Positions 55,476-56,684 of a stretch of DNA of 64,000 nucleotides are shown one piece after another; within the stretch, counting starts at the first letter, position 1; every line of letters begins with the position of its first letter. The stretch lies in NCBI GenBank assembly GCA_029881435.1, contig JAOUMR010000002.1, forward strand, positions 16,094-80,093, given 5' to 3'. The stretch comes from Nitrospira sp. GTDB lineage: Bacteria > Nitrospirota > Nitrospiria > Nitrospirales > Nitrospiraceae. Below the pieces are notes generated by a model. The model saw nothing but the letters and a program-made list of their open reading frames with translations. It made no database searches and was not told the DNA's origin. The position numbers and the translations under genes are program-made.

Positions 55476-56684
55476 ATGAAATATGTGATCGTGCATGCCG
55501 GAGGAATGGCCCATTACCCACAAGAAGAACTGGGTGGTCGGACACCGCTCCAAACAGCCGCGACTCCCCATTTAGATCGTCTGGCACAGAGCGGCGAACT
55601 TGGTCAACTGATGATTCCCGCTGAGGGGGTTCACCCTGGAGGTGGGCTGATCGGCACGGCGATCCTCGGATACGACCTGAAGAAGTTTTATCCAGGTCCT
55701 GGGCCGCTTGAAGCGGCCAGCTTGGGTGTGTCCGCAACGGAGCAGGATGTCGTGTATCGCTGCACGATGGTGACCTTGGCACCGGAAGGGGGCAAGAGCG
55801 GTGACATCAAGAAATTGGGCGCACATGTCATCATCGACGATGCGACGGCCGGGTTGATCGAAACTGAGGACGCTCGCGAGTTGATTGATGCAATCAATGA
55901 GCAACTTGGTTCCGAAACTATTCAATTCTATCCCGGCGCAGGTCACCGCCATTTAATGGTCTGGGTGAATGGGAAACACAGGGCGATCTGCACTGATCCG
56001 CAGTCGCTACTTGGTCAATCGATCGCCGATGCCTTACCATCTGGCGATGGTGCGGATATTCTTCGGAAGCTGATGGAGGCCGCCTATTTCATCTTGCGTG
56101 ATCATCCTGTCAACGAGGAACGAGTTGGCGCCGGGAAGAAACCGGCAAATTGTCTCTGGCTCTGGGGCGAGGGGCGAGCCGTCATGTGGCCGAGCCTGGT
56201 GGAGCAATACGAGGTGGCAGGGGCGGTCGTTGCCACCAACGACGTTCATCGTGGTGTAGGGATCAGTGCAGGCCTCGAAGCAGTCGATCCCGAACGACTC
56301 GAAGGTGGTGATCTCCGGGCAAATGCCAGCGTGGCATTGGAGGAGTTTGCCAAGAAGGATTTTGTGTATGTCCATACCAAGTTGACCGACGAGGTCATCC
56401 ACGGCACCGACATCAACGCCAAGGTCCGAGGGATCGAAGCATTCGATCGCGACTTGGTCGGTCCCTTGGTCGAAGGTTTGGAGAAGCAAGGCCCCTATCG
56501 ATTTCTCGTGATATGCGACCACACTGTGGGAATTGAAGGCCCGGCGTTGTACGCGTTTGGTGAAAGTGGCGGAAAAGGGGCCGGAACTGTCAGCCGCCGC
56601 TTCACCGAGGCTGAGGCGAGTGCTTCCAACATCCCTGCCCGCGATGCCACCAAGTTTGCGAACAAATTCTTCTCAAAAAGCTGA
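55476..56684 (+). CDS. phosphoglycerate mutase (iPGM/ApgM)-fold protein with degenerate active site; candidate homoserine kinase analogue
   Basis: A 402-residue protein with the archaeal-type iPGM fold (TAATPHLDRLAQSGELGQL, NCLWLWGEGRAVMWPSLVEQ, KVRGIEAFDRDLVGPL). Yet key catalytic residues are changed: the opening is HAGGMAHYP (6-15), where active enzymes have GDGMAD; the catalytic-serine loop reads PGGGLIGTAILGYD (54-67) instead of PGSDVANLS..GYD; and the late DHPTP/THxxxPVPF region reads DHTVGIEGPALYAFG. It therefore should not be a normal mutase. Family members sit beside thr genes in many bacteria and have been predicted as homoserine kinase analogues. Between thrC and lysC, and with thrB absent, that role fits best here, unproven. 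Confidence 0.8.
   Translation: MKYVIVHAGGMAHYPQEELGGRTPLQTAATPHLDRLAQSGELGQLMIPAEGVHPGGGLIGTAILGYDLKKFYPGPGPLEAASLGVSATEQDVVYRCTMVTLAPEGGKSGDIKKLGAHVIIDDATAGLIETEDARELIDAINEQLGSETIQFYPGAGHRHLMVWVNGKHRAICTDPQSLLGQSIADALPSGDGADILRKLMEAAYFILRDHPVNEERVGAGKKPANCLWLWGEGRAVMWPSLVEQYEVAGAVVATNDVHRGVGISAGLEAVDPERLEGGDLRANASVALEEFAKKDFVYVHTKLTDEVIHGTDINAKVRGIEAFDRDLVGPLVEGLEKQGPYRFLVICDHTVGIEGPALYAFGESGGKGAGTVSRRFTEAEASASNIPARDATKFANKFFSKS

Follow-up and report, generated by a model that had tools for sequence, protein, structure and literature searches.

The thrC-lysC interval of a Nitrospira genome

A 64,000-nucleotide stretch of a Nitrospira sp. genome (assembly GCA_029881435.1, contig JAOUMR010000002.1; class Nitrospiria, order Nitrospirales), referred to below as the window, carries a tight cluster of genes in the order alaAT-hom-thrC-X-lysC, where X stands for the 402-amino-acid protein encoded between thrC and lysC and for its orthologues. 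The cluster lies on the plus strand and begins with a class I aminotransferase of the alanine transaminase type (alaAT, 51891..53087; PF00155; NF006033, 656 bits), which overlaps by 4 nucleotides the gene for a homoserine dehydrogenase with an ACT domain (hom, 53084..54397; NF004976, 550 bits; PF00742, PF03447, PF01842). Threonine synthase (thrC, 54401..55459; TIGR00260, 323 bits, cut-off 167), X (55476..56684) and an aspartate kinase with ACT domains (lysC, 56690..57913; NF005155, 635 bits; PF00696 and ACT families) follow, with intergenic gaps of approximately 3, 16 and 5 nucleotides, so that hom, thrC and lysC are indeed contiguous around X, as described in the initial annotation of this DNA. 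That annotation also proposed that X supplies the homoserine kinase that is otherwise missing from the pathway, a claim that is examined here by comparison of genomes across the phylum.

The assignment of X to the ApgM/cofactor-independent phosphoglycerate mutase (iPGM) type of proteins, made initially from the open reading frame alone, is borne out by profile searches, in which X covers the whole PF10143 model (146 bits), matches PF01676 (49 bits) and passes the cut-off of the TIGR00306 apgM model (326.8 bits, cut-off 320). The score against TIGR02535, the “proposed homoserine kinase” model, is 310.3 bits, below the cut-off of 446.3; the two intact relatives scanned pass this model with 561.6 and 483.9 bits, and the scores are 187-315 bits in four other degenerate relatives and 307 bits in N. 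moscoviensis, whose protein, like X of the window, passes the TIGR00306 cut-off. The location beside hom and thrC that goes with membership in TIGR02535 is found for X, and, judged by position and by the tree, X is an orthologue of TIGR02535 (ThrB2) that sits in its ancestral place between thrC and lysC. The alaAT gene is similarly placed in relatives wherever the fetched stretch reached it and the gene was detected; hom and thrC of genome G081 and several genes of G117, which lie in GC-rich stretches, were located with tblastn. The host genome of the window (3.72 Mb, 99.85% complete) contains only one PF10143 gene. The closest named records to X come from Nitrospira, the best at 93% identity, with 78% for N. 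moscoviensis NSP M-1 and 62% for a metagenome-assembled genome named N. lenta, and among the best 120 of 1841 matches (X of the window as query) and of 1006 matches (query from another member of the order) the named rows are Nitrospira, Nitrospiraceae, Nitrospirales or Nitrospirae/Nitrospirota throughout.

Loss of catalytic positions

The sample comprises 148 genomes of the phylum, 112 of which have a match to X. The 107 full-length orthologues make up the site table, and the remaining five matches are truncated at contig ends (G045, G068) or are weak partial or distant (G001, G011, G020); many genomes outside the order also have a second, distant ApgM paralogue, which we excluded from the orthologues. 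Seven positions, representing metal ligands and the nucleophile, were scored in columns located by motif: D12, S62, D403, H407, D444, H445 and H462, the numbering and roles being those that we take to apply to Bacillus (B. stearothermophilus) iPGM.

The motif changes reported for X in the initial annotation were read correctly: AGGMAH stands where GDGMAD is usual, PGGGLIG where PGSDVAN is usual, and CDHTVGIEG, with a deletion, where DHPTPI...THT is usual. Codon 9 (55500..55502) encodes Gly at the metal-binding Asp of intact orthologues (D12), a position that is Asp in 15 of the 32 members of the family of the window, and codon 56 (55641..55643) encodes Gly at the nucleophilic Ser (S62; Ser in 21/32). 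The D403 and H407 positions are kept in the motif DEVIH (56388..56402; Asp in 30/32 and His in 24/32 family members), as are D444 and H445 in the following DH (56517..56522; Asp in 30/32, His in 14/32), and in the remnant of the PTPI...THT...PVP segment (56523..56549) the ligand His H462 is deleted. X of the window thus retains four of the seven positions, having lost the catalytic Ser and one Asp to Gly and the last His to a deletion. A frameshift or sequencing error behind the odd C-terminus was considered and ruled out, because altered or shortened C-termini recur in all members of the genus that were read.

Across the phylum, all seven positions are present in 72 of the 107 orthologues, namely in 71/71 from outside the class and in one class-mate, G117; the 35 incomplete copies comprise all 34 full-length copies of the order of the window and one further class-mate, G129. 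Given this partition, the degeneracy of X is not a matter of chance. The number of positions kept ranges from one to five in the 32 family members and is two in two other members of the order and zero in G129. The H462 His is missing in 34/34 full-length orthologues of the order, and the other losses vary between genera: in the genus of the window D12 is gone in 14/14 members and S62 in 8/14, with the Asp/His pairs kept in most, whereas a second genus (g2) keeps D12 and S62 (10/10) and has Pro at the H445 position in 10/10; N. moscoviensis keeps five positions of the seven. As at least two positions are missing in each of the 34 order members, and the subsets differ by genus, no shared complete catalytic set remains in the order. 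In a second sample (alignment A1, 57 rows, mostly database proteins), 54 Nitrospirales-type rows keep from zero to six of the first six positions, six being found only in P0115, and the DHPTP...TH segment is present in 0/54; three Clostridia rows (of five Clostridia loci retrieved) are intact, and no degenerate copy from another phylum came up among the matches listed. The divergence from true mutases, called extreme in the initial annotation, therefore fits the order as a whole better than X of the window alone, with its four positions kept; P0115 keeps six of the seven.

The changes extend beyond the scored positions. Intact copies share 106 positions with an invariance of 95% or more; of these, 56 are still present in at least 90% of the family, but 28 survive in no more than 10% of it, including R75, N97, H119, Y149, H168, D169, N274 and Y275, some of which presumably touch the substrate. 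The substrate side of X thus appears to have been rebuilt as well. Residues newly invariant in the family include, notably, H157 and D174 (32/32, compared with 0/72 in intact copies). The copy of G129 (L087:5423-6595) has lost all seven scored positions yet still lies between thrC and lysC; this genome carries a GHMP-type ThrB elsewhere.

A further possibility is that X retains, or has acquired, a catalytic function of a different kind, such as a low level of phosphoglycerate mutase or phosphatase activity, and stands in for the iPGM missing from the order: the iPGM_N domain (PF06415) is absent in 14/14 order members tested and present in 3/3 class-mates (the cofactor-dependent gpmA was not searched), X is the single PF10143 gene of its genome and the TIGR00306 cut-off is just passed. 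We regard this as quite improbable, since the copy of the window has no catalytic Ser, the last metal-binding His is missing in 34/34 copies, and three order members that lack both iPGM and X must have another mutase.

Selection, conservation and predicted fold

Ratios of nonsynonymous to synonymous substitution rates (dN/dS) were estimated by the counting method of Nei and Gojobori for overlapping pairs of sequences. Over all pairs with dS of 0.1-1.2 the median dN/dS is 0.099 for degenerate and 0.102 for intact copies, the latter figure being inflated by some distant pairs; when pairs with dN above 0.15 are left out, the values are 0.095 (42 pairs) and 0.094 (33 pairs), respectively. Purifying selection on the degenerate copies resembles that on the intact ones. 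X is full length and free of stop codons in 32/32 family members, and 76 of the 402 positions are identical in all 32. The AlphaFold2 model of X (predicted local distance difference test score, pLDDT, 92; predicted template modelling score, pTM, 0.90) has the ApgM structures 2zkt, 3kd8 and 3idd as its top Protein Data Bank (PDB) matches, and X is accordingly predicted to fold like ApgM, in agreement with the fold named in the initial annotation.

These data bear on the possibility that X is a functionless, decaying relic, kept in place because disruption between thrC and lysC would be polar. Decay would account for ligand losses that vary between genera, for the failure to find an orthologue in three members of the order, for the high divergence of the G129 copy and for the dN/dS of X, which in 17 hand-picked pairs is approximately 2.5 times as high as for thrC and lysC. 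A relic is not expected, however, to show the same dN/dS as intact copies, an uninterrupted reading frame in every family member, invariant positions that include the newly fixed H157 and D174, or a good predicted fold, and this explanation, which we consider very improbable, was rejected on the strength of the dN/dS values and the full length of the copies.

Search for a homoserine kinase and the candidate ThrH

The absence of thrB noted initially for the window extends to the whole genome: no GHMP-type ThrB was found over the cut-off (TIGR00191, 168.25 bits; PF00288), the only matches being IspE at 47 bits, which was ruled out as ThrB, and a 12-bit match. The APH-type ThrB_alt (TIGR00938, cut-off 255.9 bits) is likewise missing from the genome, with a best score of 23.9 bits. 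PF01636 matches three proteins, one of which was dismissed as a ThrB_alt candidate because it fits best the AmgK models (although under their cut-offs, at 167.5 of 550 bits), and its adjacent gene is presumably MurU-like. The second is a 361-amino-acid protein whose sole family match is NF008738 (21.7 bits, cut-off 194), and the third match scores 20.3 bits. A search for a second, Desulfovibrio-type shikimate kinase in the genome gave only the single, strong SKI match (144 bits), which we interpret as the ordinary shikimate kinase; G094 and G145 have one weak second shikimate kinase match each.

In contrast to these candidates, thrH, for which a genome-wide search had been suggested in the initial annotation, is represented by one gene over the cut-off (G000:C123:17549-18142 and L182:1486-2109, both minus strand; TIGR02137, 302 bits, cut-off 223.4). 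Its product matches ThrH of Pseudomonas aeruginosa (PDB 1rku) with 284 bits over residues 6-206 of 207 and has intact HAD motifs (DLEGVL, SDT, GDSYND). ThrH was found over the cut-off in 37 of the 148 genomes, a set identical with the order of the window, and in 0/111 others, eight of which have weak TIGR02137 matches only; the initial search, which had no positive control of its own, gave 0/14 control genomes over the cut-off. A strict motif set was passed at 10 of 30 loci, a low rate that is explained by the many copies with GDAYND for GDSYND and the few with DMEGVL for DLEGVL, and the catalytic Asp positions are kept in 32/32 rows of the ThrH alignment, drawn from 31 of the 37 genomes.

No ThrB and no SerB were found over the cut-off in the 37 genomes of the order. 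Only six of the 148 genomes of the phylum have SerB, G117 and G129 among them, so that its absence says little either way about the job of ThrH. ThrH of the order thus occurs without SerB or ThrB over the cut-off, and may act in the synthesis of serine as well as of threonine. The homoserine-phosphorylating step is likely performed by this ThrH; both the reaction and its service to threonine synthesis are presumed for Nitrospira.

Distribution of X, ThrH and ThrB across the phylum

Counted as presence over the cut-off in the 148 genomes, ThrB and ThrH divide the sample along the state of X. All 35 genomes with a degenerate copy have ThrH (34) or ThrB (1), and among the 72 genomes with an intact copy two have ThrB (G007, G117), none has ThrH and 70 have neither. 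No copy of X is present in 39 genomes, 28 of which have ThrB (25) or ThrH (3) and 11 neither; the two genomes with truncated copies have neither ThrB nor ThrH. The association of degenerate X with ThrH or ThrB has p = 3e-26, a figure that ignores shared ancestry. Eight of the 11 genomes that lack the orthologue, ThrB and ThrH are at most 92% complete (G002, G029, G030, G038, G076, G095, G100, G106). The other three, G003, G006 and G024 (97, 98 and 94% complete), have no ApgM orthologue, ThrB or ThrH over the cut-off.

Three members of the order, G065, G081 and G131, are 97 to 100% complete (G081 being a single contig) and carry alaAT-hom-thrC-lysC with no copy of X between thrC and lysC. As hom and thrC are present and both X and ThrB are missing, these genomes need another route to phosphohomoserine, and among TIGR00191, PF01636, PF01202 and TIGR02137 matches ThrH, which is present in all three, is the clear candidate, although each also has two PF01636 proteins. 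Together with the motif-intact thrH of the genome studied here and the presence of ThrH over the cut-off in 37/37 genomes of the order, this speaks against the original proposal that X itself supplies the missing kinase.

On that proposal, X would still be the homoserine kinase of Nitrospira and would work by a changed chemistry, its alkaline-phosphatase-type serine and metal pair being incomplete. The location between thrC and lysC is common to intact orthologues in many of the stretches read, purifying selection continues, no ThrB exceeds the cut-off in the order, a few relatives lack just one or two of the seven positions, and the TIGR02535 family is needed for threonine prototrophy in Bacteroides thetaiotaomicron (BT2402), as given in the GapMind study (PMC7311316). 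We nevertheless judge such a kinase unlikely: each of the 34 order members has lost two or more catalytic positions in differing subsets, the substrate-side R75, H119, Y149, H168 and D169 are gone too, the TIGR02535 score is under the cut-off, ThrH is universal in the order, and three members make do with hom and thrC without X.

A probable pseudoenzyme in place of a proposed kinase

Taken together, the evidence makes it probable that X is a pseudoenzyme descended from TIGR02535 (ThrB2) and that homoserine is phosphorylated by ThrH, whose gene lies outside the cluster. The alternative of a dedicated branch or putatively regulatory pseudoenzyme with improbable mutase chemistry, which the initial annotation had also offered, is thus supported as far as conservation combined with a broken active site can support it. 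In the scenario that we propose, ThrH, with its phosphoserine:homoserine phosphotransferase activity, would have been acquired by an ancestor of the order, and the ThrB2 protein would thereby have been released from catalysis. The active site would then have decayed, with the last His and several substrate-side residues lost in the order and throughout the family, respectively, and Asp, Ser and other ligands lost genus by genus. The folded shell may have been retained for a non-catalytic job in the operon, which is the least certain step; most likely it would tune the flux into threonine and lysine by binding either its neighbours ThrC and LysC or some metabolite of the pathway.

A non-catalytic role is suggested by the conjunction of conservation with the loss of catalytic residues, and X is perhaps a partner or sensor in its operon. 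A more specific version, in which the displaced homoserine kinase of the Nitrospiraceae would have become a non-catalytic regulatory subunit whose ApgM shell, with a rebuilt pocket that includes the newly invariant His157 and Asp174, would sense homoserine, phosphohomoserine or another pathway metabolite and control ThrC, LysC or ThrH, so that a pseudoenzyme of the alkaline phosphatase superfamily would regulate an amino acid operon, is put forward tentatively, as one possibility that we hold to be somewhat doubtful.

Several observations weigh against the reading of X as a pseudoenzyme displaced by ThrH. The association of degenerate X with ThrH amounts to approximately one event (34 of 35 cases in one clade) plus G129, and the independence of the latter is unsure, since its very long branch leaves its placement in the tree unsure. 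G007 and G117 combine ThrB with an intact copy, three members of the order live without X, and the faster evolution of X relative to thrC and lysC points the same way. The role of ThrH might be confined to that of a phosphoserine phosphatase, as no SerB exceeds the cut-off in the order, although the rarity of SerB in the phylum (6/148) makes this weak evidence in either direction. The retention of D12 and S62 in g2, of five positions in N. moscoviensis and of six in P0115 places part of the clade nearer to a working site than the copy of the window, and the lack of iPGM in the order members tested leaves some small probability to a residual mutase role. Regulation or binding by X is the least certain element of all.

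Neighbouring loci

Directly after lysC (57971-63652), the window carries genes resembling those of a type I restriction-modification system (HsdM-, HsdS-, RhuM- and HsdR-like, named from sequence); HsdM/HsdS-like genes lie beside lysC in G145 as well (L093:570-3220), and in other members of the order and class (L036, L037, L083-L087) a citramalate-synthase-like gene occupies this site instead. A second threonine-synthase-like gene was found in G081 (L092:4407-9375; 412 amino acids, 36% identical to thrC of the window), in a cluster with what are presumably a cysteine-synthase-like gene, two MoeB/ThiF-like genes and one JAB-like gene, and a second TIGR00260 match over the cut-off is present in 8/8 genomes examined.

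Significance and comparison with known systems

The phosphorylation of homoserine by TIGR02535 proteins is a proposal, for which the pattern described here constitutes a natural experiment: an intact site in 70 genomes without ThrB or ThrH and degenerate copies only in the company of either provide indirect support for the kinase role of TIGR02535 in other lineages. From the same pattern, ThrH emerges as the probable enzyme of the threonine pathway in Nitrospira. An annotation problem also comes to light, as relatives of X in the matches listed bear the names phosphoglycerate mutase (most), apgM or hypothetical protein, with homoserine kinase in P0178 and P0180, and the copies of the window and N. 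moscoviensis pass TIGR00306 despite their lost catalytic positions. The search for a new mode of pathway control has, furthermore, a tractable target where a core biosynthetic operon harbours a conserved pseudoenzyme. Among the titles and abstract openings listed in searches of an open-access library, outside of which most subscription journals lie, there is no account of a degenerate X or of ThrH in Nitrospira, and the available parts of a 2025 comparison of Nitrospirales (PMC12342949) contain no treatment of threonine synthesis. X extends a family of proposed kinases by what is likely a branch of pseudoenzymes, and the gene content of the genomes offers a plausible reason for the decay.

The proposal that TIGR02535 proteins substitute for homoserine kinase was made by the TIGRFAM curators and is discussed in the GapMind study, according to which B. 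thetaiotaomicron needs BT2402 for growth unless threonine is added, and an Escherichia coli thrB mutant was not rescued (PMC7311316). Other studies discuss a protein of this type as ThrB2 (PMC9026213), describe the zinc sites of BT2402 as fully conserved (PMC9765024) and propose a Dehalobacter protein of the same type as a threonine kinase (PMC4285132). X shares with ThrB2 the domain families and the neighbours hom, thrC and lysC, and differs from it in the score (310 bits, where the cut-off is 446), the incomplete metal and nucleophile set and the replaced substrate-side residues. From ApgM (TIGR00306; 2zkt, 3idd, 3kd8) X differs in the loss of the catalytic Ser and of two ligands, one Asp and one His, and in its location in an amino acid operon. 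In Desulfovibrio vulgaris, the shikimate-kinase-like DvMF_0971 is reported as a non-orthologous homoserine kinase (PMC5764234), a route that the single SKI match of the Nitrospira genome does not support.

ThrH of P. aeruginosa is reported not to be an ATP-dependent kinase but to transfer the phosphate of phosphoserine to homoserine, and a lack of homoserine kinase is complemented when ThrH is overexpressed (PMC1079889, citing Singh 2004 and Patte 1999). The thrH of the genome studied here matches this phosphoserine phosphatase/phosphoserine:homoserine phosphotransferase and has the same motifs intact. P. aeruginosa also has thrB; unlike there, thrH of Nitrospira is accompanied by neither ThrB nor SerB over the cut-off, and its product may therefore have to carry both steps alone.
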